A stretch of DNA of 64,000 nt from Halarcobacter anaerophilus (lineage in GTDB: Bacteria > Campylobacterota > Campylobacteria > Campylobacterales > Arcobacteraceae). Under the pieces are notes generated by a model. That model saw nothing but the letters and a program-made list of their open reading frames with translations, was not told the DNA's origin and did no database searches. Every line of letters begins with the position of its first letter. The first letter of the stretch is position 1. This document shows, one piece after another, positions 14,784-29,885 of the stretch. The translations under genes and the position numbers were made by a program. The stretch lies in assembly GCF_006459125.1 (NCBI RefSeq), contig NZ_CP041070.1, positions 1,116,001 through 1,180,000 on the forward strand, read 5' to 3'.

Positions 14784-16025
14784 ATGGCTGATTCGCATGA
14801 CATGGTAAAAAAAGTTTTTACCACAAATTCTGCAAGAGTCGAAACAAATAAGGGTGATGCTTATTATGACTCGCTTTTTGAAAAAGCGAAGTTGAGATTA
14901 AAAGCATTAAAAAAACAACGACCTCTTAAAGATATCGATATGATGGATATTGTTGAGAGTGAAGGGGTAAATAGAAGGGATTTTATGAAATGGGCAAGTG
15001 CAACAACAGCTACATTGATGCTGCCGCCTATGTTTACTCCGTTGGTTGCCGAAGCTACTGAACTTATGAACAGAGTTCCGGTTGTTTGGATAGAGTTGCA
15101 AGATTGTGCAGGAAATTCAGAAGCACTTCTTAGAAGTTCTGCTCCTACAGTTGATGATTTGATTTTTGACGTATTAAGTTTGGAGTTCCATGAAACTATT
15201 ATGGCAGCATCTGGACATCAGGCAGATGCACAACTAGAAGATGCTATTGAGCATTTTAAAGGTAAATATCTACTTTTTGTTGAAGGTGCAATTCCAACAG
15301 CAATGAATGGTCAATACGGAACAATAGGTGCAAGCGGTGAAACTTTTCAAGAACACTTAGAAAGACTCTCTAAAGATGCTGCTGCCGTTGTTGCAGTAGG
15401 TACCTGTGCTACCTTTGGAGGTATTCCTGCGGCTGCTCCAAATCCAACGGGTGCTGTTGGTGTTATGAATATTGTTAAAGGTAAACCTGTAATCAATATT
15501 CCTGCCTGTCCTGCGAATCCTGCTAATATGGTCGGTGTTGTTCTTCATTATGTATTAACAGGGCAAATTCCCGAATTAGACTCTCTTCTTAGACCTAAAT
15601 TTGCATTTGGTTACAGAATTCATGACAATTGTGAGAGAAGGGCTCACTTTGATGCGGGTGAATTTGTTGAAGAGTGGGGAGATCATGGAGCGCAAAACAA
15701 TTTCTGTTTATATAAAGTAGGGTGTAAAGGTCCTATGACTTTTAATAACTGTTCTATTATAAGATATAACGAAGGTGCAAACTGGCCTGTAGGTGTGGGT
15801 AGAGGATGTATCGGGTGTTCGGAACCTGATTTTTGGGATAAATATGCGTATGAAAGACCAATGGCTGATGCAAATATTAAAGCTCCTACAGGAGGAGTTG
15901 AAAAAACAGTTGATCAATTCGGTCTGGGTTTATTAACTGCAACAACTATCGGTATAGGTGTACATGCCGTTACAAGTGCAATGGTCGGTAAAAAAACAGT
16001 TCATACTAAAGATGGAGAAGAGTAA
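14784..16025 (+). CDS. hydA1: Membrane-bound [NiFe] uptake hydrogenase small subunit 1 (atypical CxxN proximal motif)
   Basis: 413 residues from ATG 14784, placed 6 bp after AAAGGAG; an upstream in-frame ATG at 14748 lies inside the operator and is rejected. A Tat signal (NRRDFMKW, then a hydrophobic stretch) appears only after about 60 charged residues. A C-terminal helix (about 385-405) anchors it in the membrane. The proximal-cluster motif is DCAGNSEA (Cys108, Asn111), where the paralogue HydA2 has ECTGCSES, so one of four Cys ligands is Asn. The others (GTCATFGG, PACPANP) are present, as are distal (HDNC, NFCLYKVGCKGP) and medial (NNC, GCIGC) ligands. It should pass electrons from HydB1 to cytochrome HydC1 at the periplasmic face. 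Its stop overlaps the hydB1 start. Confidence 0.92.
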   Translation: MADSHDMVKKVFTTNSARVETNKGDAYYDSLFEKAKLRLKALKKQRPLKDIDMMDIVESEGVNRRDFMKWASATTATLMLPPMFTPLVAEATELMNRVPVVWIELQDCAGNSEALLRSSAPTVDDLIFDVLSLEFHETIMAASGHQADAQLEDAIEHFKGKYLLFVEGAIPTAMNGQYGTIGASGETFQEHLERLSKDAAAVVAVGTCATFGGIPAAAPNPTGAVGVMNIVKGKPVINIPACPANPANMVGVVLHYVLTGQIPELDSLLRPKFAFGYRIHDNCERRAHFDAGEFVEEWGDHGAQNNFCLYKVGCKGPMTFNNCSIIRYNEGANWPVGVGRGCIGCSEPDFWDKYAYERPMADANIKAPTGGVEKTVDQFGLGLLTATTIGIGVHAVTSAMVGKKTVHTKDGEE

Positions 16026-17761
16026 TGAGTAAACATGTAGTAATAGATCCGATAACAAGGATAGAAGGACACTTAAGAATTGAAGCAGTTATTGATGAAA
16101 ATAATGTGATAAAAGAGGCTTTTAGTTCTTCTACAATGTTCAGAGGGATTGAAGAGATTCTAAAAGGCAGAGATCCTAGAGACTGCGGTCTTTTGGCTAT
16201 GAGAATCTGTGGCGTTTGTACAGGTACTCATTATCAAAGAAGTATAGAAGCCGTTGAACATGCTTTTGGTGTAACAATTCCAAAAAATGCAAGACTTGTA
16301 AGAAATTTAATGCAAGGTGCTTTATATTTGCATGATCATATTGTTCACTTTTATCATCTTCATGCACTTGATTGGGTTGATATTACAAAAGCTTTGGAAG
16401 CAGATCCTAAAAAAGCAGTCGAAGAAGCACAAAAATGGGCTAAAATAGCAGGAACCAGAGCTTGGAATGCAAGTGAAGACAACTATAAAGAGGTTCAAGA
16501 CAGAGTAACAAAATATGTAAAACAAGGAAGACTTGGTGTATTTGGAAATGCTTACTGGGGAAGCAAAGCTTATAAACTAACTCCTGAGCAGAATTTAATA
16601 GGTCTTTCTCACTATTTAGATGCACTTGACTTACAAAGAAGAATTGCAAAAGCTCAAGCAATTTTCGGAGGTAAAAACCCCCATCCACAATCAATAGTAG
16701 TAGGTGGAGTAACTTGTGTTCAAGATATTAAAAATCCTGCAAGAATTGCAGAGTTTAAAGATATTATCCAATTAGCACAGAAATTTACTAAACAAGCATA
16801 CCTTCCTGATGTATATATGGCTGGAACAATGTATGCGGATGAAGCTTTAGCAGGTGTTGGAGGCGGTTTAGGAAACTTTATGTGTTACGGTGATTTTAAT
16901 CTTGATGATACACCGTTTTACGAAGCAAAAAAACTTTTCCCAAGTGGAATCGTATTAAACAAAGATTTATCAAAAGTTTATGATTTAGATCAATCAAAAA
17001 TTACAGAAGACGTAACACACTCTTGGTATGAAGGAAATGATAATCTTCACCCCTTTGATGGGAAAACAAATCCTAACTATACAGGTTTTAAAGAGAAAAA
17101 AGAGGGTATTGCATATTTAGATACGGATAAAAAATACTCTTGGATAAAATCTCCGCTTTATGACGATCAAAGAATGGAAGTAGGTCCACTTGCAAGAATG
17201 ATAGTCGGAGTTGCCAGAGGAGATGAAAGAATTACAAAATATGTAACTACCTTTTTGAAAAACGGAAATCTTCCTACAAAAGTTTTATTCTCAACAGTAG
17301 GAAGAACGGCAGGTCGTGCTATTGAAAGTGAAATGATGGCAGATGTGATAATTCAATGGTGTGACGAATTAGCCGCAAACGTGGCAGCAGGTGATTTATC
17401 TACTTGGACAGAGTTTGATTTTGACAAAGTATCAAAAGATGCTCAAGGTTACGGAATGGCAGAAGCTCCAAGAGGTAGTTTGGGGCACTGGGTTAAAATA
17501 AAAGACGGAAAAGTCGTAAATTATCAAGCAGTTGTTCCTTCAACTTGGAATGCGGCACCAAAAGATTATAAAAATAGAATGGGAGCTTATGAAGCTTCAT
17601 TGGTAGGAACAAAAGTGGTTGACCCTGATCAACCTTTGGAAATTATTAGAACAGTGCATAGTTTTGACCCTTGTATTGCTTGTGCAGTTCATATTGTAGA
17701 TACAAAAGGTAAAGAACTTGCGGTATATAAAGTAGATCCATTAGGAGGATGCCGTGCCTAA
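16025..17761 (+). CDS. hydB1: [NiFe] uptake hydrogenase large subunit 1
   Basis: 578 residues. Starts HVVIDPITRIEGHLRIEAV, the large-subunit signature. Ni-binding motifs are RICGVCTGTH (about 60-69) and SFDPCIACAVH followed by a C-terminal tail of about 22 residues (IVDTKGKELAVYK...) that a HydD-type protease removes after the His once the Ni-Fe site is complete. The protein carries no signal of its own and is exported by riding on the Tat signal of HydA1. It oxidises H2 at the periplasmic side (group 1b-like by overall architecture). The start abuts the hydA1 stop (ATGA-type coupling) and the end overlaps hydC1 by 8 bp. Confidence 0.96.
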   Translation: MSKHVVIDPITRIEGHLRIEAVIDENNVIKEAFSSSTMFRGIEEILKGRDPRDCGLLAMRICGVCTGTHYQRSIEAVEHAFGVTIPKNARLVRNLMQGALYLHDHIVHFYHLHALDWVDITKALEADPKKAVEEAQKWAKIAGTRAWNASEDNYKEVQDRVTKYVKQGRLGVFGNAYWGSKAYKLTPEQNLIGLSHYLDALDLQRRIAKAQAIFGGKNPHPQSIVVGGVTCVQDIKNPARIAEFKDIIQLAQKFTKQAYLPDVYMAGTMYADEALAGVGGGLGNFMCYGDFNLDDTPFYEAKKLFPSGIVLNKDLSKVYDLDQSKITEDVTHSWYEGNDNLHPFDGKTNPNYTGFKEKKEGIAYLDTDKKYSWIKSPLYDDQRMEVGPLARMIVGVARGDERITKYVTTFLKNGNLPTKVLFSTVGRTAGRAIESEMMADVIIQWCDELAANVAAGDLSTWTEFDFDKVSKDAQGYGMAEAPRGSLGHWVKIKDGKVVNYQAVVPSTWNAAPKDYKNRMGAYEASLVGTKVVDPDQPLEIIRTVHSFDPCIACAVHIVDTKGKELAVYKVDPLGGCRA

Positions 17762-18488
17762 AATGAAGCGGGTTGAAAGAATGACTCCAATCATGCGAAC
17801 CATTCACTGGTCGAATGCCGTTTGCATGCTTGTGGCAGTTATAACCGGGCTATATATAGGTCATCCGTATTATCAAACTTTTATAGCTGATCCTGCAGTT
17901 GATAAATATGTGATGGCATGGAACAGATGGGGGCATTTAATTGCCGCAATCGTATTTGACGTAACTGCTATTTTAATCGGTTACTTATATCTATTTTCAA
18001 GATTTGAAAAACCATATAAAAAGATACTTCCTACAAAGAAAAACTTTATAGAGTTTTGTGAAGTATTTTTTAACTTAATAACGTTTAACAGAAGAAAAAA
18101 GTTTAACAGTGAATACAGTGATAGTTACAATATTATGTTTTTCACGCTATTTCATATTCTTTTAGTATTTATGTTATTAACAGGTCTTCAAATGTATGTA
18201 CACGGTTTAGCGTCAGGAGAGAGTTCTATAGGAGCATGGTGGCCTTGGATATTGCATTTGTCTACTGATTGGACTTTAAGCGTATTCGGTGGAAACATGG
18301 GCGTTAGAATTGCTCATCATACAGCAATGTATATATTGATTATGTGGGTTATGTGTCATATTTATTATCAAATCTGGAGAACAATCTTTTGGAAAGAGGG
18401 TGATATAAATATTGTATTCGGCGGTTATAAATTTGCTAATAAAAATTCAATTGAGGCAAAAAATAATTTAGAAACCCAAGGAAAATAG
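17754..18488 (+). CDS. hydC1: Hydrogenase cytochrome b subunit 1
   Basis: 244 residues, GTG start at 17754 a few bases after GGAGGA, overlapping the end of hydB1. Four to five membrane helices carry histidines placed for two b hemes and quinone contact: TIHWSN near residue 17, NRWGHL near 60, FHILL near 131 and RIAHHTAMY near 190. It anchors HydA1B1 to the membrane and passes electrons to (mena)quinone. A terminator 20 bp downstream ends the hydA1B1C1 unit, so hydD1E1 probably has its own promoter or relies on read-through. Confidence 0.93.
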   Translation: MPKMKRVERMTPIMRTIHWSNAVCMLVAVITGLYIGHPYYQTFIADPAVDKYVMAWNRWGHLIAAIVFDVTAILIGYLYLFSRFEKPYKKILPTKKNFIEFCEVFFNLITFNRRKKFNSEYSDSYNIMFFTLFHILLVFMLLTGLQMYVHGLASGESSIGAWWPWILHLSTDWTLSVFGGNMGVRIAHHTAMYILIMWVMCHIYYQIWRTIFWKEGDINIVFGGYKFANKNSIEAKNNLETQGK

Positions 18489-18619: not shown

Positions 18620-19195
18620 ATGAAAAATATTCTTATAGGTGTAGGAAATGTACTATTTAAAGACGAAGGAGTAGGAATCTATGCCTCTAAATATTTACAA
18701 AAAAATTTTGATTTTGGTGAAGAATTAGAAATTATCGAAGGCGGTACTTTAGGTTTTAAATTGATGACTTATTTTCAAGAGTATGATAATGTTATTATTT
18801 TAGATACTGTTTCTATTGAAGATAAAGCAGGTGAAATCTACAGATTACCTTCTGACGTTCTTTTAGGTCTTGGACAATATAGAAAAACTGCTCATGAAGT
18901 AGAAATAGTAGAGATGCTTGAAATATGTTCTGTTTTGGAAAAACATGCAGAAGTTACTATTTTAGGAATAATCCCCGAAGATATACAAAGTGTAGAAATA
19001 GGATTAACCCAAAATATTGAAAATAGATTTGATGAATATATAGCTCAAGCTTTAAAAGAGTGTGAAAGCATAGGAATAAAACCTAAAAGAAAAGATAATA
19101 AAAGCATTAAAAATATAGCTCAAGAGTTAATAGGAAGCTATAACGGGGAACACTTAAATAGAATCCCCAATGAGGAAGATACTACATGGAACTAA
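18620..19195 (+). CDS. hydD1: Hydrogenase maturation protease 1 (HyaD/HybD family)
   Basis: 191 residues. The N-terminus IGVGNVLFKDEGVGIYASKY has the conserved Glu that senses Ni; a Asp in ILDTVSIEDKAGE (about 56-60) and the His in KTAHEVEIVEM (about 93) complete the Ni-contact residues of the HybD family. It cleaves the C-terminal tail of the hydrogenase large subunit. The C-terminal 35 residues are an extension rich in K and N. Follows a terminator by 75 bp and overlaps hydE1 by 10 bp. Its likely client is HydB1, by position. Confidence 0.93.
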   Translation: MKNILIGVGNVLFKDEGVGIYASKYLQKNFDFGEELEIIEGGTLGFKLMTYFQEYDNVIILDTVSIEDKAGEIYRLPSDVLLGLGQYRKTAHEVEIVEMLEICSVLEKHAEVTILGIIPEDIQSVEIGLTQNIENRFDEYIAQALKECESIGIKPKRKDNKSIKNIAQELIGSYNGEHLNRIPNEEDTTWN

Positions 19196-20721
19196 TTTAT
19201 AAAATAGAGTTTAACAGTACAAATTTTTATTTTAAAGATATAATTGACGAGATAATAAAAGCTTCGGCAGTAAATGCCGTATCAAAAATGTATAGAGGTT
19301 TTATTTTATTGGTCTGCAATGATACTGAAGAAAAAATTAAAGAGTTTTTTGAAGCTTTGGAACAAAAACTTCCTTTATCTATCTTTTTATCTAAAGCAGA
19401 AGTATTGGATAGTTTTGATTATGAAAAAAACAAAGAGCTTGAAGATAAACATATAAAAGTAAATTTATCACTGCTCACAAATGAACAGATAAAAAAGATT
19501 CTTGAATTAAACAGCATTGATTTTTCAAATGATATAAATAAAATAAAAGAGGGTGGAGTTTCACGTTTTGAAACACACAACGGATTAAAAGATTTTTTTC
19601 TTCCTTCACGAGCTTTAAGAGAAGATTTTGAAGCAAAAGGGTACGAAGTTAAATTACTTATTACTGATATAAATAAAATATCGGATCTTTTAGAAATTTC
19701 ACAAAAAGATTTACAACTATTATGTTCTATAGAAAGACCCTTAGTCAAATTAAAATTCAAACTTCTTTATAATAAAAATAAAGAGTATTCCGATACTAGA
19801 TTTATTTATGCCAAAATTCCCGATGATAAAGAGACTATTCTTTTTGCACATGCTTTAAAAAACAGCGGTCTAAATTATCTTTTATATGTAAATGACGATG
19901 TTTATCAAAACGGTTTAAAAGTTACATATAATGATAAACAAAATATTGTAGTTTACGGAGATAAAACACTTTTTCCTAAATATGATTATAAGTTAAATAG
20001 AAAAGTAAACTCTTCTGCTGATTATTTTGAAGAGTACGGTTGCGTATATAAAGCAGTTCTTTGTCAGCTTAATAAAAAAGATGTTCCTACTGTAGGAGTA
20101 TATTTTTCATATAAGAGTGATGAATCTTCAATAAGAGTTAATATACCTGATATAGGGCAAAAAGAGATTATATATATTCCAAATGTTTTAAACAGCGTGG
20201 ATAACTGCTTGGAAGATATAAAATCAATTGATGAAAATACGGATAGATTGGTTGAAAACTATGTTAAAAAATTTCCTCAATTCTTTGAAAAAGAGTTTTT
20301 AGACAAAAATAGCGACGGCTTTGCATCAATTTTAAATATCCTAGCTTATATTTTAGGAATGAAAGATTATAAAGAGTTTGAAGATACGGCACTTTTATAT
20401 AGAGCTAAAAGCGGACTTCAAATAGATATGAACGTGCTTAAAATTGATGGGAAAAATTATTTGGATTATAGAAAAATTATCCAAAGTTCTATGAGTTATA
20501 AAATGGCTGATGTTGAAGATAGTATGATTGCCTACTCTTTTTATGAGAGTTTATGTGACTTTATAGCAGAACATGTTAATACAATATCAAAAGAGATAGG
20601 TGCAAAAGATTTAATCCTTTGCGGAAATATGTTTGCAAATTCGATTCTTCTTTCCAAAATAGATAAAAACTTAAAAAATATTAATATAATACTTCCTAAA
20701 GAGTATCCTTTAGATTACTAA
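19186..20721 (+). CDS. hydE1: HydE-type hydrogenase maturation factor 1, degenerate HypF-like
   Basis: 511 residues. HydE is required for hydrogenase activity in Helicobacter but its biochemical role is unknown. Compared by eye with the HypF at 27666-29885, residues 1-75 resemble the HypF acylphosphatase-like domain without its VQGVGFRP loop. The C-terminus LILCGNMFANSILLSKI lines up with HypF IVLTGGVFQNKTLLELV, and the protein ends at EYPLDY exactly where HypF continues PLNDGGIALGQL. The Zn fingers of HypF are absent. It therefore looks like a HypF paralogue without the usual catalytic motifs. Start ATG 19186 overlaps hydD1. Inference: scaffold or chaperone specific for hydrogenase 1. Confidence 0.78.
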   Translation: MELIYKIEFNSTNFYFKDIIDEIIKASAVNAVSKMYRGFILLVCNDTEEKIKEFFEALEQKLPLSIFLSKAEVLDSFDYEKNKELEDKHIKVNLSLLTNEQIKKILELNSIDFSNDINKIKEGGVSRFETHNGLKDFFLPSRALREDFEAKGYEVKLLITDINKISDLLEISQKDLQLLCSIERPLVKLKFKLLYNKNKEYSDTRFIYAKIPDDKETILFAHALKNSGLNYLLYVNDDVYQNGLKVTYNDKQNIVVYGDKTLFPKYDYKLNRKVNSSADYFEEYGCVYKAVLCQLNKKDVPTVGVYFSYKSDESSIRVNIPDIGQKEIIYIPNVLNSVDNCLEDIKSIDENTDRLVENYVKKFPQFFEKEFLDKNSDGFASILNILAYILGMKDYKEFEDTALLYRAKSGLQIDMNVLKIDGKNYLDYRKIIQSSMSYKMADVEDSMIAYSFYESLCDFIAEHVNTISKEIGAKDLILCGNMFANSILLSKIDKNLKNINIILPKEYPLDY

Positions 20722-20749
20722 AAATAATAAATTCTTCTTCTTTTTGAAT

Positions 20750-20790
20750 AATAAGTTTAATTATAAATAAAAGTTATAATTAAACTTATT
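20750..20790. repeat. Perfect 17-bp inverted repeat after hydE1
   Basis: A 17-bp arm (20750-20766, beginning AATAAGTTTAATT) pairs perfectly with 20774-20790 around a 7-base loop. It begins 29 bp after the hydE1 stop. The stem is nearly all A-T and lacks a T-run, so it may be a terminator substitute, an mRNA 3' end stabiliser or a protein site. The rest of the 347-bp gap 20722-21068 is AT-rich and contains the hydA2 promoter; no gene is visible. Confidence 0.6.
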
Positions 20791-20971
20791 GATAAAATGT
20801 AAAAAAAATGTAGAAACTAAGAAGCAAAAACTATCAAAAATATTGAAAATATGGTAATTATGTCACGTTAATGTCATCTTAGAAAGATAAAATCAAATTA
20901 TATTAAAAAACTTTAAAAAAAATTTAAATTTTTAGTTAAAGTTAAGTTTAAGTCATGTAATATTCTTTATA

Positions 20972-20988
20972 TATAATGAATATTCATT
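20972..20988 (+). promoter_or_regulatory. Putative hydA2 promoter with H2-regulon operator 3
   Basis: TATAAT at 20972-20977 overlaps a perfect 14-bp palindrome AATGAATATTCATT (20975-20988). The palindrome has the ATGAA-N2-TTCAT core seen at the hydA1 promoter. Overlap of the -10 box and operator is the classic repressor layout. The hydA2 GTG lies 80 bp downstream. Confidence 0.65.
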
Positions 20989-21068
20989 CAAGAAATTGAT
21001 TTAAGTGACAAGAATTTGTCGTAAGTGGTTATTATATAATTGAATAATTGTTTAGTAAAGGAAATATT

Positions 21069-22226
21069 GTGAAAGAGAATAGTTTATTTAACAGACTTTC
21101 GAAAAGATTGGAGTCTCTTGAAAAACTTCCAAAAATAGATGAAACTAAATCTATTCCAAAAGTTTTAGAAGAGAAAGGTTTCTCAAGAAGGGATTTTATG
21201 AAATGGGCTACTGCAGTTACTGCAATGTTAGCACTTCCAGCTAATTTTACTCCTCTAGTGGCAAAAGCTGCTGAGATAAGTGATAGATTGCCTATTATAT
21301 GGCTTCATATGGCTGAATGTACAGGTTGTTCCGAATCGCTGCTAAGAACTGATGCACCTACAATTGATTCTTTGATATTTGACTATATCTCTTTAGAATA
21401 TCATGAAACATTAATGGCAAGTGCAGGGTGGCAAGCAGAAGAGAATTTAGAACATGCAATAGAAAAACATAAAGGTAATTATATCCTTATGGTTGAAGGT
21501 GGTATTCCAAGCGGTGATACCGACTTTTATCTTACAATAGGCGGTCACGGTAAAACAGGAGAACAAAATGCAAAAGATGCCTGTGAAAGTGCAAAAGCTA
21601 TTTTTGCTATTGGCACCTGTTCTTCTTTTGGAGGTGTACAAGCTGCAAATCCAAATCCTACAGGAGCGGTTGCTTTAAGCAAAGTAACTAACAGAACAGT
21701 AATAAACGTACCTGGATGTCCTCCAAGTGAAAAAAATATTGTGGGTACTTTACTTCATTTTATTCTTTACGGTACTCTTCCTGCTTTAGATCCATATAAC
21801 AGACCAAAATGGGCTTATGGCTTAAGAATTCACGATCTTTGTGAAAGAAGAGGGCATTTTGATGCAGGTGAGTTTGTTGAAGAGTTTGGTGATGAAGGTG
21901 CAAAAAAAGGTTATTGTCTTTATAAAGTCGGTTGTAAAGGACCATATACTTTTAACAACTGTTCAAAAAATAAATTTAACCAACACACTTCTTGGCCTAT
22001 TCAAGCAGGACATGGATGTATCGGGTGTTCAGAACCTGATTTCTGGGATACAATGGGACCTTTTGAAGAACCGGTTGCAGACAGATTGTATAATAGTGTA
22101 TTCGGCGGTTTAGGAGCTGATGCAACAGCTGATAAAATAGGTGTTGGACTATTAGCGGTTACAGGTATCGGTATAGCTGCCCATGCTGCAATTTCAAAAT
22201 TTAAACACCCAAAAGATGAGGAGTAA
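21069..22226 (+). CDS. hydA2: Membrane-bound [NiFe] uptake hydrogenase small subunit 2
   Basis: 385 residues from GTG 21069, 7 bp after AAAGGA; a TTG at 21048 has no ribosome site. A Tat signal (SRRDFMKW) sits near residue 38 after a charged leader. All Fe-S ligands are canonical: proximal ECTGCSES (Cys84, Cys87), GTCSSFGG, PGCPPSE; distal HDLC and GYCLYKVGCKGP; medial NNC and GCIGC. A C-terminal helix (about 357-378) anchors it. It resembles the Campylobacter/Helicobacter/Wolinella HydA more closely than HydA1 does. Three bases separate it from hydB2. It is the first gene of a complete five-gene hydABCDE operon. Confidence 0.96.
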   Translation: MKENSLFNRLSKRLESLEKLPKIDETKSIPKVLEEKGFSRRDFMKWATAVTAMLALPANFTPLVAKAAEISDRLPIIWLHMAECTGCSESLLRTDAPTIDSLIFDYISLEYHETLMASAGWQAEENLEHAIEKHKGNYILMVEGGIPSGDTDFYLTIGGHGKTGEQNAKDACESAKAIFAIGTCSSFGGVQAANPNPTGAVALSKVTNRTVINVPGCPPSEKNIVGTLLHFILYGTLPALDPYNRPKWAYGLRIHDLCERRGHFDAGEFVEEFGDEGAKKGYCLYKVGCKGPYTFNNCSKNKFNQHTSWPIQAGHGCIGCSEPDFWDTMGPFEEPVADRLYNSVFGGLGADATADKIGVGLLAVTGIGIAAHAAISKFKHPKDEE

Positions 22227-22229
22227 AAA

Positions 22230-23960
22230 ATGTCAACAAAAAGAGTAATTGTCGACCCTATAACAAGAATTGAAGGACATTTAAGAATAGAAGTAGAGGT
22301 TGATGAAAATAATGTAATTCAAGATGCTTTTTCATCTGCTACTTTATGGAGAGGATTAGAGACTATTGTAAAAAACAGAGATCCAAGAGATGCCGGTTTT
22401 TTAATGCAAAGAATTTGCGGTGTATGTACTTTTTCTCATTATAGAGCAGGAATTGAAGCTGTTGAAGATGCTTTAGGTATTGTTCCTCCTTTAAATGCAA
22501 AATTAACAAGAAGTTTGATGAATCAAGCACTTTTTATGCATGACCACGTTGTGCATTTTTATCATCTTCACGGTTTAGACTGGGTTGACGTGGTATCAGC
22601 ACTTGATGCAGATGTTGCAAAAGCTTCAAAAGAGGCATTTAAATATACAAAATATCCAATTGCAACAGGTGAAAATGATCTGTTAAAAGTTAAAGATAGA
22701 GTTAAAGCATTTGTTGACAAAGGTGAATTAGGACCGTTTGCAAACGCTTATTGGGGACATGGAACATTTAAATTTACTCCTGAGCAAAATTTAATTGCAC
22801 TTTCTCACTATTTAAAAGCTTTAGAAGTTCAAAGAACAGCTGCACAACTTATGGCAATGTTCGGAGGTAAACAACCTCACCCTCAAAGTTTAACAGTAGG
22901 TGGAGTTACTTGTGTAATGGATCTGCTTGACCCTTCAAGAATGGGTGAATATTTAACAAAATACAAAGAAGTTGCAAACTTTATTGAACATGCATATTAT
23001 GCCGATATAAAAATGGCAGGTGGTGCATACTTTAAAGAAGGAAGTGTTACTGCACAAGCAGGTACAATGAACTTTATGTCTCATCAAATGATGGAGTTAA
23101 ACAGAAGTGAATATCTTTTTGATACAGGTATTATTTTAAACGGTGATTTATCAAAAGTTTATCCTATAAATGAAGATTTAATCACAGAAGAAGCAACTCA
23201 CTCTTGGTATGCAGATAATGAACCTTTACATCCATATAACGGGAAAACAAATCCTAACTATACAGGATTAAAAGATAAAATGACAATTGGACCTGACGGT
23301 AAAGAGATTCCTTCTAAATCACTTGACGATCAAGGAAAATACTCTTGGATTAAATCTCCTAGATATGACGGTCAAGTTATGGAAGTGGGACCTTTATCTT
23401 GCTTGTTGGTTTCATATGCAAAAGGTAATACAAAAGTTAAAGCTGTAGTAGATGAATTTTTACAAGAGACAGGACTTCCAACCGAAGCTTTATTTACTGC
23501 CCTAGGAAGAACAGCTGCAAGATGTTTACAAGCTATGGCTATTATTAGAAACGGTATGGAAACATTCAATACTTTAATTGAAAACTTAAAAGTTGACCAA
23601 GAGACTTGTGCTTCATATCATATAGATAAAGATAAAGAGTATAAAGGAAGATTTATAGGAGATGTTCCAAGAGGAATGTTATCACACTGGGTTAGAATCA
23701 AAAACGGTGTTATTGAAAATTATCAAGCCGTAGTTCCTTCAACTTGGAATGCAGGACCGACAGATTCTAAAGGACAAAAAGGTCCATATGAATCAAACTT
23801 AATAGGTTTAAAAGTTGAAGATATTTCAAAACCTTTGGAAATTATCAGAATTATACATAGTTTTGACCCTTGTATTGCTTGTGCGGTACATGTAATGGAT
23901 AAAAAAGGTAATAATCTTGGTGTTTACAAAGTAGATCCAATATACGGATGCAGCTGTTAG
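22230..23960 (+). CDS. hydB2: [NiFe] uptake hydrogenase large subunit 2
   Basis: 576 residues, clearly paralogous to HydB1 along its whole length. Ni motifs are RICGVCTFSH (about 60-69) and SFDPCIACAVH followed by a roughly 22-residue C-terminal tail for HydD2 to remove. It oxidises H2 in the periplasm with HydA2, entering the Tat pathway by co-export. Position 3 bp after hydA2 and 9 bp before hydC2 supports co-transcription. This is the module closest to the hydABCDE operon known from Campylobacter, Helicobacter and Wolinella. Confidence 0.96.
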   Translation: MSTKRVIVDPITRIEGHLRIEVEVDENNVIQDAFSSATLWRGLETIVKNRDPRDAGFLMQRICGVCTFSHYRAGIEAVEDALGIVPPLNAKLTRSLMNQALFMHDHVVHFYHLHGLDWVDVVSALDADVAKASKEAFKYTKYPIATGENDLLKVKDRVKAFVDKGELGPFANAYWGHGTFKFTPEQNLIALSHYLKALEVQRTAAQLMAMFGGKQPHPQSLTVGGVTCVMDLLDPSRMGEYLTKYKEVANFIEHAYYADIKMAGGAYFKEGSVTAQAGTMNFMSHQMMELNRSEYLFDTGIILNGDLSKVYPINEDLITEEATHSWYADNEPLHPYNGKTNPNYTGLKDKMTIGPDGKEIPSKSLDDQGKYSWIKSPRYDGQVMEVGPLSCLLVSYAKGNTKVKAVVDEFLQETGLPTEALFTALGRTAARCLQAMAIIRNGMETFNTLIENLKVDQETCASYHIDKDKEYKGRFIGDVPRGMLSHWVRIKNGVIENYQAVVPSTWNAGPTDSKGQKGPYESNLIGLKVEDISKPLEIIRIIHSFDPCIACAVHVMDKKGNNLGVYKVDPIYGCSC

Positions 23961-23969
23961 GAGCATATT

Positions 23970-24635
23970 ATGATTAAAAAACATTATGAATTCTCATACT
24001 GGCTTAGAGTTACTCACTGGATTAGAGTTGTAGCAATTATTGTATTAACCGTATCAGGTTTTTATATAGCTTCACCTTTTATAACTCCTGCTAGTGGAGG
24101 CGAACCCACAAATTTTATGAATGCTCTTTTTAGATCATGGCATATAATTTTTGGATTTTTATTAATTGCAGTGACAATAGGAAAATTCTATTTGTTTATT
24201 TTTGATAAACAAAGTCAAGTAGAGAGAAAATCTTTTTGGGATTTTATTAATCCAAAAACTTGGATACAACAAATAGGATATTACTTACTTGTTTCAAAAC
24301 ATCCACATACAAAAGGAGCATATAATCCTTTGCAATTTTTAGCATATGCAGGGATTTATATCTCGCTTGTAATGATATCTTTAACAGGATTGATTTTATA
24401 TGTAAATGTTTACCATGACGGAATGGGTGGATTATTATACGATGTTATGAGAAATTTTGAAGCAATATTAGGTGGACTAGCTTGGGTTAGACAGTTACAT
24501 CATATCTTTATGTGGATTTTTATAATATTCTTACCAATTCACGTATATTTGGTAATCTTTAACTCAGTCTACGGAAAACACGGTGATGTTGATTCTATTG
24601 TAAGCGGATATAAATGGGTGAAAGAAAAAGAGTAA
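23970..24635 (+). CDS. hydC2: Hydrogenase cytochrome b subunit 2
   Basis: 221 residues, start ATG 23970 preceded by TTAGGAG. Four to five membrane helices contain the expected heme/quinone histidines: VTHWIRV near residue 13, RSWHIIF near 51 and RQLHHIFMW near 178, with FLPIHVYLV close behind. It links HydA2B2 to menaquinone. The stop TAA shares its last A with the hydD2 ATG (TAATG). Clearly diverged from HydC1, so the two modules are an old duplication or separately acquired. Confidence 0.93.
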   Translation: MIKKHYEFSYWLRVTHWIRVVAIIVLTVSGFYIASPFITPASGGEPTNFMNALFRSWHIIFGFLLIAVTIGKFYLFIFDKQSQVERKSFWDFINPKTWIQQIGYYLLVSKHPHTKGAYNPLQFLAYAGIYISLVMISLTGLILYVNVYHDGMGGLLYDVMRNFEAILGGLAWVRQLHHIFMWIFIIFLPIHVYLVIFNSVYGKHGDVDSIVSGYKWVKEKE

Positions 24636-25198
24636 TGAATATTTTAATATTAGGAATAGGAAATATCCTATTCCAAGATGAAGGTATCGGAGCTCATTTT
24701 GTACACTATTTAGATGAGAAGTATGATTATCTCTCAAATGAAAATAGCGTAACAATTGTTGATGGAGGAACATTGGCTCAAAGGCTGATTCCTCTTATCA
24801 TAAAGTTTGATAAAGTTTTTGTGATTGATTGTATTGATGCACAAGACAGTAAAGCAGGAGATGTCTATTTCTTTGATTATTTAAAGGCACCTTCAGAAGT
24901 TGACTGGCAGGGAAGTGCTCATGAAGTAGAAATGCTTCAAACTCTTAATATGATAAAAATGAATGGAGATTTGCCTGAAACTTTTGTTTTAGGGATAATT
25001 CCCAAAAGAGTTGCAGATGATACCACTTTTGATTTAAGTGAAGAGATTGTAAAAGCATCGGCAACAATGGAGCATACGATTCTTAAATCTTTAAAAGAGT
25101 TAGGAGTTGAAACAAAAATTAGAAACAGCAATATTACTATAAACGATATTGCAAAAATTTCATTTAAAAGAGAGATTATTAATGATCTTAAAATATGA
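24635..25198 (+). CDS. hydD2: Hydrogenase maturation protease 2 (HyaD/HybD family)
   Basis: 187 residues from ATG 24635 (TAATG coupling with hydC2). Residues LGIGNILFQDEGIGAHFVHY carry the Ni-sensing Glu. VIDCIDAQDSKAGD near residue 65 and GSAHEVEMLQT near 95 supply the other family residues. It removes the C-terminal tail of HydB2 after Ni insertion. Overlaps hydE2 by 17 bp. Confidence 0.93.
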   Translation: MNILILGIGNILFQDEGIGAHFVHYLDEKYDYLSNENSVTIVDGGTLAQRLIPLIIKFDKVFVIDCIDAQDSKAGDVYFFDYLKAPSEVDWQGSAHEVEMLQTLNMIKMNGDLPETFVLGIIPKRVADDTTFDLSEEIVKASATMEHTILKSLKELGVETKIRNSNITINDIAKISFKREIINDLKI

Positions 25199-26810
25199 GT
25201 TTGAATATCAATCAAATAACAACTCTTTTATTACGATTTTAGATAATCTTCTAAAATCTAAAGAGTCTGAATATAAAATTGATAAAATAGGTGACAAAAT
25301 CTTTTTATATGTAGAAGATGAAGAGAAAAGGCTAATAGAGTTATCGGACGAATTGTCAAAAGAGTTGCCTGTCTCGATATTTTTAAAAGATTTTTCATTG
25401 GAAGTTGTACCACACATACCTCCTATTGACTATCAATACACCCTAGATAGTTGCTTAAAGTCTTATTGTCCAAATTGTTTAAATGAAACTGAAAATAAAA
25501 AATCGGCAAATTATTATAATCCCTTCATAAATTGTCAGATTTGTGGTACAACTTCCAATGAAAAATCAATGCAAATTTATGAAAAAAACGAACTTTTAAG
25601 TTTTGAAAGTTTTAAAAAAAGTTTTGAATATTTAGCCTCTTCTTTAAATAATGGAAAAATTATAAAAATTAAAAACTCATCAAAAACTTTTTTTCTAAAA
25701 AAGTTTGAAAAAATAGAGTATGAAGATCAATGGTTATTATGTAATGATGTAGAAAATTTATCTAAACTAACTGTGGGGTCAAAACAAAAAAATATAGCTC
25801 TTCTTAGTTTGGAAAAGCCTGTTATTGATTTTAATATTAATGCTATTTATAAAAGAGCAAATAAAATTGATTTTGAAAAAGTAAAAATCTCATATCCTTG
25901 GGATTTGGTTTTATACCTTTTATCAAAAGAGCTTTTAGAACAAGAAATAGAGTTTCTATCAATAGAAGAGACAAAAGATGATTTTGATATAGAAGTAGTT
26001 TATGATAAAAGTCTTACTCCTCCTAATATCTCGGTAACTGAAAATAGAATTTTTCTTCTTGGCAACAGCTGCTATGACGAAAGATTGGATGAAATTTACG
26101 ATAAATTCGATGAAGCATCAAAATCTCAGTTTACAGTTCTTTTAGATGAAAATGCACTTTATGAAAAATCAATTTTAAATATCTTCTTTTCATCAAAATA
26201 TGATGACGCAATATCTCTATACTCTCCAAAAATTGACGGGATTATCGATATTGTAAAATTTAAATTGCCAAATTCAATTGAAGAACTTTTTGCAGAAATT
26301 AAAAAAAGTAAAAACGGAGAAAAACTTTTAAATAATTATAAAGAAAAATTTCCGGAAATTTATGAAAAAGCTTTACAAACAGATATTTCGACTTTACATA
26401 AAAATTCAATTTATTCTTTATGGGAAATTGCATCAACAGTTTTGGAAATAGATAATATTTATTCAAAAGCAAGCCATTGTATTTTACAAAAAGGTCCTAG
26501 AATAGATTATAAACTTAATAAAAACGATAAACTTTTTAATAATGAATTTGATTTTGTAAGTTTTATAAAAAGCGGTATAAGTTTCAAATTGGCAGGAGTT
26601 GACGAAAAAACAATATCTTTGGGATATGTAGAAAATTATATCTATTTTTTAAGTGATTTATTTGATAAAGTTAATGAAGAGTTTGAGCTTGACGGAATCT
26701 CTTTTTGCGGTGATTTTATAGGTGAAGATTTTATAAATAAACTTATAAATAAAATTTTTAATAAACAGTTAAAAATTTATTATAACAGAGATTTCCCGAT
26801 ACAAAAATAA
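25182..26810 (+). CDS. hydE2: HydE-type hydrogenase maturation factor 2, degenerate HypF-like with one Zn finger
   Basis: 542 residues from ATG 25182. Residues 1-75 resemble the HypF acylphosphatase-like domain. Residues 96-121 hold CPNC-x18-CQIC, the same spacing as the first HypF zinc finger (CEDC-x18-CTNC at HypF 107-132), and the surrounding YNPFINCQICG resembles HypF. The C-terminus ISFCGDFIGEDFINKL lines up with HypF IVLTGGVFQNKTLLEL and ends DFPIQK, just before the HypF PLNDGG motif. It is thus intermediate between HypF and the Zn-finger-less HydE1. Known: Helicobacter HydE is needed for hydrogenase activity. Inferred: a HypF-derived accessory for hydrogenase 2. Confidence 0.8.
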   Translation: MILKYEFEYQSNNNSFITILDNLLKSKESEYKIDKIGDKIFLYVEDEEKRLIELSDELSKELPVSIFLKDFSLEVVPHIPPIDYQYTLDSCLKSYCPNCLNETENKKSANYYNPFINCQICGTTSNEKSMQIYEKNELLSFESFKKSFEYLASSLNNGKIIKIKNSSKTFFLKKFEKIEYEDQWLLCNDVENLSKLTVGSKQKNIALLSLEKPVIDFNINAIYKRANKIDFEKVKISYPWDLVLYLLSKELLEQEIEFLSIEETKDDFDIEVVYDKSLTPPNISVTENRIFLLGNSCYDERLDEIYDKFDEASKSQFTVLLDENALYEKSILNIFFSSKYDDAISLYSPKIDGIIDIVKFKLPNSIEELFAEIKKSKNGEKLLNNYKEKFPEIYEKALQTDISTLHKNSIYSLWEIASTVLEIDNIYSKASHCILQKGPRIDYKLNKNDKLFNNEFDFVSFIKSGISFKLAGVDEKTISLGYVENYIYFLSDLFDKVNEEFELDGISFCGDFIGEDFINKLINKIFNKQLKIYYNRDFPIQK

Positions 26811-26816
26811 AAGATT

Positions 26817-27551
26817 TTAAGTATCTGTTTTATTTTTGTTTTCGGAATTAATCTCTTGTTTTAATTCTGCAATTTGTGAGAGCAACTCCTCTTTTGATTT
26901 ATTCTCTTTTTCAAGATCTTCTTCTAATTTTTTATTTGAAACTTTTATTTCATCGATTCTTTGAGTAATTGTAAGTTCTGCTTTACTAGCTAATTTATCA
27001 ATAGTATTAGGAACAAGTTTCTCACTAAATCCGGCAATAAAACACCAAATCATGGCTTTTAAAACATCATGATTTGTTTTAGGAAGGATTTGTTGGAAAA
27101 AGTTTAAAAAATCTCCTGAATAGTCTGCTTCTAAATTTGAAAATTCCGGGAAAAAACTTCCTTGAATAAGTCCTGAAGAAATAGTTGCATAAAAAATCAA
27201 TCCTAAAGTTCCCGAAATCAACAAAGATACATATATTTGAAGGATATTTATAATTTTTTCTTTCGGTACGAATTTATCAAGATGAGAAGAGGGAAGTTTA
27301 TTTATTCTAAGATAGTTATTAATTACTCCGCCTAACATTCCGCATAAAAAAAGTATCAACAGTAAAGGATATTTTTTCCCATCATCCCAAAAAAAATCAG
27401 GTCTTTTTATCATTAGAATCAAAAAGTTAATTGCAAGAACGGCTGCAATCATTGCATGAACTCTAAGGCTTAAAGTCAAATCTTTAAGCAGATTTTTCGT
27501 ATTTGTGGTCATTTGTTTAAAAGCTTGCATAAGATTTGCAGTTGGTTTCAT
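26817..27551 (-). CDS. Membrane protein with C-terminal coiled coil, unknown function
   Basis: 244 residues, not recognised. Three clear membrane segments (about 32-50, 62-84, 105-125) and a weaker fourth (about 165-183). Residues 190-240 are a charged heptad-like region (KLEEDLEKENKSKEELLSQI) predicted to form a coiled coil. It has no Cys or His motif tying it to hydrogenase chemistry. It is convergent with hydE2 (6-bp gap) and divergent from hypF (114 bp), so it interrupts the hydrogenase region on the opposite strand. Confidence 0.7.
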   Translation of the reverse strand: MKPTANLMQAFKQMTTNTKNLLKDLTLSLRVHAMIAAVLAINFLILMIKRPDFFWDDGKKYPLLLILFLCGMLGGVINNYLRINKLPSSHLDKFVPKEKIINILQIYVSLLISGTLGLIFYATISSGLIQGSFFPEFSNLEADYSGDFLNFFQQILPKTNHDVLKAMIWCFIAGFSEKLVPNTIDKLASKAELTITQRIDEIKVSNKKLEEDLEKENKSKEELLSQIAELKQEINSENKNKTDT

Positions 27552-27665: not shown

Positions 27666-29885
27666 ATGAAGGCTGTTTATATTGAAGTAAAAGGTATAGT
27701 GCAAGGTGTAGGTTTCAGACCTTTTGTTTTTAATCTTGCAATTTCAAATAATCTTGCAGGATGGGTAAATAATGATGACAGAGGCGTTAATATAGTATTA
27801 GAAGGTTCTTCTTTAAATATAGAAAATTTTATTGAAACTTTAAAAAAAACTCCTCCGCCTTTGGCTAAAATAGACTCTCTTGAAACAAAAGAGATTAAAG
27901 CAAAAGAGTATAAAAAATTTGAGATAAAAAAGAGTGAAACAACTTCAAATAAAACAACAATAATCTCTCCTGATATGGCAATTTGCGAAGATTGTATAAA
28001 TGATATAAACGATAAAAACAATTTTAGATATAACTATGCTTTAACAAACTGTACAAACTGCGGACCTAGATACTCAATTATTAAAACAGTTCCTTATGAT
28101 AGATGTAATACTTCTATGAGTGATTTTATTATGTGCGAGGATTGCCAAAAAGAGTATGAAGAGCCTTCAAACAGGAGATATCATGCCCAACCCGTTTCTT
28201 GTGAAAAGTGTGGACCGAAAATTGCTTTATATGATAAAAACAATAATCTAATTTCAGAAGATAATAAAGCAATAAAAGAGATAGCTTTAAAAATAAATAG
28301 CGGAGAAATAGTCGCTATAAAAGGAATGGGAGGTTTTCATCTTATTTGCGATGCAACAAATGATAAAACTGTTGAACTTTTAAGAAAAAGAAAAAACAGA
28401 CCTGCAAAGCCTTTTGCTGTTATGTTTAAAGATATAAAGCAGTTAAAAGAGTTTGCAGACTTTACAAAAAAAGAGGAAGAGATAATTACTTCAAAAGAGA
28501 AACCTATTACTCTAATTAAAGCAAAAAGTTCATCTTTAAGTTTTTTTGTTGCACCTAATATTGACAGATTAGGGTGTTTTATTGCATATACTCCTTTACA
28601 TATAATTCTTTTTAAATATTTAAAAAATCCCATAATAGCAACAAGTGCAAATCTATCTGATGAACCGATTATCAGACAAAAAGATGAGTTGCTTGAAAAG
28701 CTTGCAAATGTGGTTGATTTTATATTAGATTATGACAGAGAGATTGTAAATGCCTGCGATGATTCAGTCGTACAAGTTGTAAATAATGAAATTTCAGTTT
28801 TAAGAAATGCCAGAGGTTATGCTCCCACATCTTTAAAAGCAGAGAAAAAAACAGCTAAAAAAATACTAGCTTTAGGCGCAAACCAAAAAGCAACAATAGC
28901 TTTGGCGTTTGAAGATAATCTGATTTTATCTCCTCATATAGGAGATTTGAATTCAATTACTTCTTTGGAGTATTTTGAAAGAACAATTGAAACTTTTAAA
29001 AGGTTTTATGATTTTGAACCTGAACTTATAGTTTGCGATAAACATCCAAATTATGAGAGTACAAAGTGGGCATTAAAACAAAATATTAAAACGGTGCAAA
29101 TTCAGCATCATTATGCCCATGCTCTTTCGACTATGGCTGAATACGGCTTAGATGAAGATGTTTTGGCTTTTTGTTTTGACGGAACAGGGTATGGCGATGA
29201 CGGAAATATTTGGGGAGGAGAGGTCTTTCTAGCAAATAAAAAAGAGTATAAAAGAGTAAATCATTTTAAATATTTTAGATTAATAGGCGGAGAAAAATCT
29301 ATAAAAGAGCCAAAAAGAGTAGCTCTTTCCCTTCTTTTTGAAACTTTTTCTTTAGATGAAGTATTAAAGCTTGATACTCCCACAGTAAATGCTTTTTCCG
29401 TAAATGAGATAAAACTTTTGCATACAGTTTGGCAAAAAGGTTTAAATGCACCACTTACAAGCTCTGTAGGAAGAATTTTTGATGCTGTTGCCTCTTTTAG
29501 TTCAATCGCCCAAACGCAAACCTATGAAGGAGAGACGGGACTTCAAATAGAGCAAGCATATGATAAAAAGATAAAAGAGTTTTACTCTTATGAAATAAAA
29601 AATGGAAATATAGATTTAACAAAAGCAGTAGAAGAGCTAATAAAAGATAAGCAAAAAGAGTTAATTTGCTCAAAATTTATAAATATGTTAGTTGATATTA
29701 TAATAACAATATCTTTAAAATATGATCTGCCTATAGTGCTTACGGGAGGAGTTTTTCAAAATAAAACTCTTTTGGAACTGGTCTGTAAAAAACTGGAAAA
29801 AGAAGGTAAAAAATATTATTACTCAAAAAGAGTTCCTTTAAATGACGGAGGAATAGCTTTAGGACAACTCTACTCTCAAATTTAA
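27666..29885 (+). CDS. hypF: Carbamoyltransferase HypF, [NiFe] hydrogenase maturation
   Basis: 739 residues from ATG 27666; earlier in-frame codons are non-coding upstream DNA and AGGAAAAG lies just before this start. Domains in order: acylphosphatase (VQGVGFRPFVFNLA at 12-25), two zinc fingers (CEDC-x18-CTNC at 107-132; a second CxxC-x18-CxxC at about 157-182), a YrdC-like domain with KGMGGFHLICDA near 220, and a Kae1-like domain with QHHYAHALS, FCFDGTGYGDDGNIWGGE and TGGVFQNK, ending PLNDGGIALGQL. It uses carbamoyl phosphate and ATP to make the thiocarbamate on HypE that becomes the CN ligands. It is separated from hypBCDEA by 3 kb. Confidence 0.96.
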   Translation: MKAVYIEVKGIVQGVGFRPFVFNLAISNNLAGWVNNDDRGVNIVLEGSSLNIENFIETLKKTPPPLAKIDSLETKEIKAKEYKKFEIKKSETTSNKTTIISPDMAICEDCINDINDKNNFRYNYALTNCTNCGPRYSIIKTVPYDRCNTSMSDFIMCEDCQKEYEEPSNRRYHAQPVSCEKCGPKIALYDKNNNLISEDNKAIKEIALKINSGEIVAIKGMGGFHLICDATNDKTVELLRKRKNRPAKPFAVMFKDIKQLKEFADFTKKEEEIITSKEKPITLIKAKSSSLSFFVAPNIDRLGCFIAYTPLHIILFKYLKNPIIATSANLSDEPIIRQKDELLEKLANVVDFILDYDREIVNACDDSVVQVVNNEISVLRNARGYAPTSLKAEKKTAKKILALGANQKATIALAFEDNLILSPHIGDLNSITSLEYFERTIETFKRFYDFEPELIVCDKHPNYESTKWALKQNIKTVQIQHHYAHALSTMAEYGLDEDVLAFCFDGTGYGDDGNIWGGEVFLANKKEYKRVNHFKYFRLIGGEKSIKEPKRVALSLLFETFSLDEVLKLDTPTVNAFSVNEIKLLHTVWQKGLNAPLTSSVGRIFDAVASFSSIAQTQTYEGETGLQIEQAYDKKIKEFYSYEIKNGNIDLTKAVEELIKDKQKELICSKFINMLVDIIITISLKYDLPIVLTGGVFQNKTLLELVCKKLEKEGKKYYYSKRVPLNDGGIALGQLYSQI

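Follow-up and report, generated by a model that had tools for sequence, protein, structure and literature searches.

The hydE1 and hydE2 genes of Halarcobacter anaerophilus have been analysed in a stretch of 64,000 nucleotides (contig NZ_CP041070.1, positions 1,116,001 to 1,180,000; called the window from here on), which is part of one closed chromosome of 3.02 Mb (genome label G000). The sequence comparisons and the predicted folds have indicated that HydE is almost certainly a catalytically dead descendant of the cofactor-pathway enzyme HypF. Over all the findings, the best explanation is probably that this dead paralogue acts as a chaperone in the assembly and the export gating of the hydrogenase. 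The hydE and hypF features are as follows:

19186 to 20721, plus strand: hydE1, 511 amino acids, predicted HypF paralogue of the type 1 hydrogenase, no zinc finger
20341 to 20709, plus strand: HydE1 residues 386-508, predicted remnant of the Kae1-like C-terminal subdomain of HypF (Pfam HypF_C_2, 5e-9)
25182 to 26810, plus strand: hydE2, 542 amino acids, start ATG at 25182, predicted HypF paralogue of the type 2 hydrogenase, one zinc finger
25467 to 25544, plus strand: HydE2 zinc finger C96-C121, C-x2-C-x18-C-x2-C as in HypF (Pfam zf-HYPF, 2.4e-4)
27666 to 29885, plus strand: hypF, active paralogue, both fingers and every catalytic motif present (NCBIfam TIGR00143, 1.1e-250)

With 739 amino acids and a score of 833.8 bits against the NCBIfam model, the HypF of the window is the sole full copy in the genome.

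Relationship of HydE to HypF

Pfam has detected only the ends of the window HydE, namely the C-terminus of HydE1, which matches HypF_C_2 above the curated cut-off, and the finger of HydE2, which matches zf-HYPF slightly below it. With TIGR00143 the two proteins score 26.5 and 14.4 bits, under the cut-off of 466.1. An initial annotation of this DNA, made from the sequence alone, had described HydE2 as keeping a single finger with the HypF spacing and HydE1 as fingerless, and both descriptions hold: the HydE2 finger (C96-x2-C99-x18-C118-x2-C121) agrees exactly in spacing with the first finger of HypF and CxxC is absent from HydE1. The C-terminal block which it regarded as shared (TGGVFQN in HypF, CGNMFAN in HydE1 and CGDFIGE in HydE2) is also aligned, its first glycine being conserved in 69 of 71 HydE.

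The gap between the window proteins and HypF is bridged by a long form of HydE with 636-650 amino acids, to which 13 of the first 30 extracted relatives belong. These 13 retain both fingers in the arrangement C-x2-C-x18-C-x2-C-x24-C-x2-C-x17-C-x2-C, and the long form extends past the ends of the window HydE and past PLNDGG, reading ...YPIGKENAVVGGVYL as against ...VPLNDGGIALGQLY in HypF. Pfam has recognised zf-HYPF in 9/9 and HypF_C_2 in 8/9 of the long HydE, and the same two domains in 10/43 and 18/43, respectively, of a diverse HydE sample. Both window proteins had been said to end exactly before the PLNDGG motif, but HydE1 (...YPLDY) and HydE2 (...FPIQK) are found to end inside it (VPLNDGG in HypF); an end near this motif is also no general trait of HydE, as other members continue beyond it.

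Profile-profile comparison has recovered the proposed relation to HypF. The long HydE and HypF aligned with an E value of 1.7e-37 over 594 collinear columns, the HydE2 group and HypF over 516 columns (5e-18) and the HydE1 group and HypF only over the C-terminal 136 columns (4e-7). Against the long form, the HydE1 group aligned over 491 columns (2e-54) and the HydE2 group over 533 columns (2e-62). Eight control profiles (HydA, HydB, HydD, HypB, HypD, HypE, HupL and reversed HypF) gave probabilities of 0.1-0.7%, with a maximum of 7.8% for reversed HypF against the long form. Chance resemblance is excluded because the long HydE and HypF match so strongly over the 594 columns while the controls are clean. 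When a profile of 43 HydE was compared with all PDB sequences, HypF alone was found below E 0.03 (3vth, 2e-27; 4g9i, 6e-18; 3tsp/3tsq, 1e-7), and the next entries, with E 0.03 and 0.09, were unrelated.

The folds of HydE1 and HydE2 were predicted with AlphaFold2 from alignments of 55 family members and no templates, giving a predicted local distance difference test score (pLDDT) of 86.8 and a predicted TM-score (pTM) of 0.86 for HydE1, and of 83.4 and 0.64 for HydE2. The nine top Foldseek matches of each model were HypF chains, with 3vti reaching 5e-18 for HydE1 and 7e-22 for HydE2. In VIA-align superposition on 3vti, 477 residues of HydE1 (Z 18.6, root mean square deviation 4.7) and 483 residues of HydE2 (Z 18.3, root mean square deviation 5.4) were aligned, and the first and last aligned residues were the protein ends in both models. 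HydE1 residues 90-511 aligned with E. coli HypF over 371 residues at 3.6. The central region shows no deviating fold in either model, since both match HypF along the whole length. Pfam is blind to the acylphosphatase-like N-terminus noted earlier even at E 1, but the order beta-alpha-beta-beta-alpha-beta is present there in both predicted folds, which align with HypF from residue 1. The origin of HydE from HypF, as the initial annotation had it, is thus supported by a whole-length relation in the profiles, the predicted folds and the PDB search.

The genome set of this study comprised 200 genomes of the phylum (Campylobacterota), all within the window's own order. From a scan of genome contigs for relatives of HydE the best 80 of 240 were taken, and the titles of these 80 name Campylobacterota, save one reading only 'bacterium'. 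Viral contigs scanned with HydE2 gave no relative. Among plasmids, just two records matched a long HydE over 80% or more, each of them from Campylobacterota, and the HydE relatives on two annotated plasmids are labelled 'hypothetical protein'.

Loss of the HypF active sites

HypF is described as having three active sites in a chain in the accessible text of PMC6022934, and the motifs KxR...SxN of the YrdC part and HxxH...D of the Kae1 part are given in that of PMC9654439. These positions were compared in an alignment of 22 HypF and 71 HydE, the motifs being assigned to columns by us. The YrdC lysine, the asparagine of SxN and the second histidine of HxxxH are each found in 22/22 HypF and 0/71 HydE. 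The first histidine of HxxxH (1/71), the aspartate of NDGG (3/71) and the acylphosphatase arginine (5/71) are nearly lost from HydE and are likewise present in 22/22 HypF; the YrdC arginine is retained in 2/71 and the serine of SxN in 7/71 HydE. The column of the acylphosphatase asparagine was misplaced by one and was not used. Free of any alignment, a GFRP-type motif occurs in 0/71 HydE vs 19/22 HypF and a KxRxxKP-type motif in 0/71 vs 22/22. Acidic positions of the Kae1 part have survived to some extent (DGTG aspartate, 15/71), and among the structural positions the proline of the YrdC RP/KP pair (70/71) is conserved, as is the first glycine of TGG. The non-catalytic nature earlier attributed to HydE is in keeping with this loss of residues from all three HypF active sites.

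Lineages, zinc fingers and selection

A quick tree of the 71 HydE and 22 HypF, with the finger columns left out, has placed all HydE on one side of a branch and all HypF on the other (100). When six HypF from other bacteria serve as the outgroup, the tree groups HydE with the Campylobacterota HypF. The time of the duplication is uncertain because the HydE stem is long (2.29); as the HydE and HydB trees split alike, we infer that it is older than the separation of the two hydrogenase types. Three sets separate within the HydE tree, with no settled branching order: 39 rows are of the HydE2 type, 28 belong to the long group and 4 to the HydE1 group.

Two fingers are present in 21 of the 71 HydE, one in 15, half a finger in 6 and none in 29. 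The HydE1 group has none in 4/4; the long group has two in 21 rows, one in 2 and half in 5; type 2 has one in 13, half in 1 and none in 25. At least eight changes of finger state are required on the tree, and the fingerless HydE1 shares its HydB type with the two-finger long form. The ratio of non-synonymous to synonymous substitution (dN/dS) was obtained from 23 close pairs, nearly all of the type 1 lineage with one of type 2 and none from the HydE1 group, and its median was 0.08 for HydE (21 usable pairs), 0.133 for HypF (11) and 0.051 for HydB (16). The type 2 pair (L143/L144) gave 0.125 for HydE vs 0.287 for HypF. The dead copy is under stronger constraint than the living HypF.

HydE1 and HydE2 had been regarded as successive stages of decay, and this view is not borne out. 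A decaying gene was rejected because of the low dN/dS, and a linear series from HypF over HydE2 to HydE1 because of the tree and the pairing with hydrogenase types; there are instead two lineages, each tied to its own hydrogenase type, with repeated loss of fingers.

Association of HydE with the exported hydrogenase

In the named loci (which include Sulfurimonas, Sulfurovum, Sulfuricurvum, Hydrogenimonas, Poseidonibacter and Arcobacter) and in most of 40 fetched regions the gene order is hydA-hydB-hydC-(hydD)-hydE, mostly followed by hypF. The position of hydE is mostly directly behind the protease gene; in some regions hydD is located after hypF. HydB lies within 6 kb upstream for 104/121 HydE, and the type of HydE equals that of HydB, which forms distinct HydB1 and HydB2 clades, in 103 of these 104 operons. 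By BLAST labels the count is 101, and the two mislabelled HydE (L150, L178) were placed in the type 2 clade by the tree. The lone mismatch (L125) is a type 2 operon followed by a long HydE. Within the window's own family, some genomes have just one of the types, either 1 or 2, and two genomes (that of the window and G122) have both, so HydE tracks the hydrogenase and not the species.

Presence was scored with a broad HydE profile at E 1e-40 or better and a HydB match at 1e-20; HydE1 as sole query was dropped, as it missed HydE in G035, G051, G080, G151, G169 and G198 that the profile has found. A HydE match is present in 189/200 genomes, which are the 191 with HydB less G126 and G129, whose sole HydB is of the fused type described below. 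In the nine genomes that lack HydB, no whole HydE occurs. Among eight weaker matches that were checked, seven were whole frames and one was split (G036). The hydrogenase-specific role suggested by the initial annotation is supported here, HydE type following HydB type and HydE presence following HydB. Three of the nine genomes without HydB hold hydE relics, and two of these three, G142 and G179, keep a full-length HypF over the cut-off, and their relics each contain ten stops. The 14-15 kb surrounding these two relics showed no further hyd gene; in G196 a hydE piece of 94 amino acids lies near a hydD match. The relics are located as follows:

L212, 6936-7351: hydE relic, genome without HydB match
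L213, 7291-7513: hydE relic, genome without HydB match
L214, 9238-9450: hydE relic, genome without HydB match

G126 and G129 carry a related hydrogenase with a small subunit of ~805 amino acids, where the Tat (twin-arginine translocation) signal is replaced by a flavin domain (Pyr_redox_2) and a BFD [2Fe-2S] domain that precede the NiFe small-subunit part. No HydC or HydE was found near this fused hydrogenase in the two genomes, and HypF is their sole match to the HydE profile.

L210, 9118-11538, minus strand: fused small subunit, with large subunit and protease
L211, 3714-6122, plus strand: fused small subunit, with large subunit and protease

Their large subunits are 46-50% identical to HydB1 and HydB2 of the window. 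The fused type occurs in 11/200 genomes, the other nine of which also have a HydE match, and four HydB of this type form one clade closer to HydB2 than to HydB1, with modest support (89). This type probably represents a form of the HydABC hydrogenase that is cytoplasmic and NAD(P)H-linked. A Tat motif is present in 94/95 unfused HydA of the fetched loci, the one exception being a frame that lacks its N-terminus; among HupS it is present in 0/50.

Proposed function of HydE

HydE is very probably a dedicated assembly chaperone of the HydABC hydrogenase. A role for the exported HydA-HydB pair is suggested because its gene mostly takes the place behind the protease gene that hyaE/hyaF or hybE have in E. 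coli, because the HybE and HupH/HyaF families were not found in the 61 genomes searched for them, and because HydE is absent from genomes that have lost hydABC or whose only such hydrogenase is devoid of both the Tat signal and HydC. In G126 and G129 a relative of the large subunit seems to manage without HydE, which would speak for the exported small subunit or the heterodimer as client more than for HypE or the large-subunit precursor. In the proposed mechanism HydE would no longer produce carbamoyl adenylate and would serve in the cytoplasm as the assembly chaperone of Tat-exported HydABC. The HydA(-HydB) precursor would stay bound to it until insertion of the NiFe site and clipping of the large subunit by HydD, and it would release only the finished enzyme for export, the task ascribed to HyaE/HyaF and HybE in E. 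coli. The main job of HydE may be to gate export by way of the small subunit, with a likelihood somewhat short of even. More tentatively, HydE could be an export gate which recognises the precursor of the Tat small subunit and the large subunit, lets it go only once it is mature, and replaces HyaE/HyaF/HybE throughout Campylobacterota, including gastric and gut pathogens.

Several observations weigh against such a role. hydE lies within 3 kb of hypF in 81/121 cases, with a median overlap of 22 bases, which would also fit a partner of HypF. The distance correlations are mixed, HydE following HydA in type 1 (partial 0.51-0.79) and HypF in type 2 (0.46-0.64); they name no consistent partner and do not decide. 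An HxxxH string is found somewhere in 14/71 HydE, but just one HydE has the first histidine where HypF has it, and no HydE has the second there. G036 bears HydB, but its hydE is split into frames of 337 and 262 amino acids (L219, 822-2578, adjoining hypF), either by a sequencing error or by a recent break, and G099, an assembly of 150 contigs with HydE, gave no HypF, perhaps due to an assembly gap. The check for Tat signals covered the fetched loci, a part of the 189 genomes with HydE, and Tat, HydC and HydE are inseparable because the fused hydrogenase is also without HydC and forms one clade, its activity being assumed.

The initial annotation had pictured HydE as a partner that holds, for example, HypE or the large-subunit precursor. 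On this reading HydE would be a docking adaptor, which would bind HypE (or HypCD) in the manner of HypF and bring the Fe(CN)2CO donor to a specific large-subunit precursor. The accessible text of PMC4506123 has the C-terminal cysteine tail of HypE held in the Kae1-like domain of HypF, a fold that is kept in the HydE models; the top Foldseek match of both models is the HypF chain of a HypE-HypF complex, and HydE is specific to its hydrogenase type. We nevertheless consider it rather unlikely. G126 and G129 possess HypF and the HydB relatives described above with no HydE, which suggests that HydE is dispensable for the cofactor line in itself, and the HydE distances do not specifically follow those of HydB (partial -0.04 to 0.26).

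An activator or stabiliser of HypF, forming a pseudoenzyme-enzyme pair from a tandem duplication, would explain why hydE directly precedes hypF with ends that often overlap, and why the distances of type 2 HydE follow HypF best. It is nevertheless improbable, as HypF occurs without a whole HydE in G126, G129, G142 and G179, and the number of HydE follows the hydrogenase in the window genome, where two hydrogenase operons and two HydE accompany one full HypF. Least probable is that the old fold has gained a new catalytic activity, with which the strong purifying selection and the conservation of positions in both the YrdC and the Kae1 part would agree, since the examined HypF catalytic residues are nearly all lost and the diverse alignment A5 has few invariants (a Glu, a Ser and a Gly), which form no motif that we recognise.

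Comparison with known systems

HydE resembles HypF (TIGR00143; PDB 3vth, 3vti, 4g9i, 3tsp) in its whole-length fold, in the order of its acylphosphatase-like, zinc-finger, YrdC-like and Kae1-like parts, in operon adjacency, in the one or both zinc fingers of many members and in the first glycine of the C-terminal TGG block. Unlike HypF, it is shorter, has lost the active-site residues and follows the hydrogenase type.

With HyaE, HyaF and HybE of E. coli it would share its proposed role, and it shares the place behind the protease gene and the tie to exported hydrogenases; it differs in coming from an unrelated family and in being about two to four times longer. These E. coli proteins serve the maturation of particular hydrogenases, and some of them are chaperones of the small subunit that bears the Tat signal; HyaE and HybE carry out Tat proofreading. 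In the E. coli operons hyaE and hyaF, or hybE, lie directly behind the protease gene, and they are annotated as putative HyaA chaperone (HyaE), protein HyaF and hydrogenase-2-specific chaperone (HybE). HybE and HupH_C (HupH/HyaF) were each found in 0/61 Campylobacterota genomes, with E. coli matched as control, and HydE1 and HydE2 gave no match to PF07449, PF11939 or PF04809 at E 1. The HyaE model (PF07449) did match in 58/61 genomes, but weakly (best E 2e-7), mostly with its second half and in short frames that were taken as thioredoxins; neither of the two matches in this genome falls inside the window. PMC4464133 counts HyaE and HybE among the maturation proteins.

HydE of the window is like H. 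pylori HydE (HP0635) in being the last gene of hydABCDE, and the two were equated by operon position. With the HydE of [FeFe]-hydrogenases only the name is shared. That protein is a radical S-adenosylmethionine (SAM) enzyme, and Pfam, at E 1, has found no radical-SAM domain in either window protein. The accessible text of PMC4794192 reports eleven Sulfurospirillum genomes with HydE and three with all of HydE, HydF and HydG; our guess is that this count may confuse the Campylobacterota HydE with the radical-SAM one.

HydE is required for the H. pylori hydrogenase, and its function is given as not fully understood or unknown in the accessible parts of papers of 2017 and 2020 (PMC5557546, PMC7695850), just as the initial annotation had stated for Helicobacter. 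According to a table in PMC7695850, HydE takes part in bringing the hydrogenase complex to the membrane, and this would agree with the export reading. In the open-access literature, no paper among the matches listed appeared to tie HydE to a HypF descent, subscription literature being mostly outside this search. The identification of HydE as a dead HypF provides an exact model of its structure, names the residues that were lost and narrows the candidate partners to a few, and it ties HydE to the exported hydrogenase and not to the probably cytoplasmic relative. If the proposed role is true, a cofactor-pathway enzyme has been reused whole as a client-specific chaperone in a clear case, and a dead cofactor-making enzyme has become the export gate of the enzyme once built with its help.

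Gene layout of the window

The window holds a tandem pair of complete hydrogenase operons, hydA1B1C1D1E1 and then hydA2B2C2D2E2. Downstream of hydE2 a minus-strand gene is followed by hypF and then by hypB, hypC, hypD, hypE and hypA, with other genes interspersed. The hyp names other than hypF are those which we take to apply by similarity, and they agree with the annotated plasmid records. The remaining genes of the operons are:

14784 to 16025, plus strand: hydA1, small subunit, Tat signal, type 1
16025 to 17761, plus strand: hydB1, large subunit, type 1
17754 to 18488, plus strand: hydC1, cytochrome b subunit, named by similarity to annotated records
18620 to 19195, plus strand: hydD1, maturation protease, overlaps hydE1; annotated relative named HyaD/HybD
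21069 to 22226, plus strand: hydA2, small subunit, Tat signal, type 2
22230 to 23960, plus strand: hydB2, large subunit, type 2
23970 to 24635, plus strand: hydC2, cytochrome b subunit
24635 to 25198, plus strand: hydD2, maturation protease, overlaps hydE2

The minus-strand frame (26817-27551, 244 amino acids, no Pfam match) separates hydE2 from hypF and interrupts the usual coupling of hydE and hypF. In G163 there are two hydE-hypF regions (C1:252425 and C1:1327069), with one hydE match in a frame of 315 amino acids. On a plasmid of Sulfurovum mangrovi (L188, 11593-13834) hypF is annotated as two genes, an acylphosphatase and a shortened HypF.

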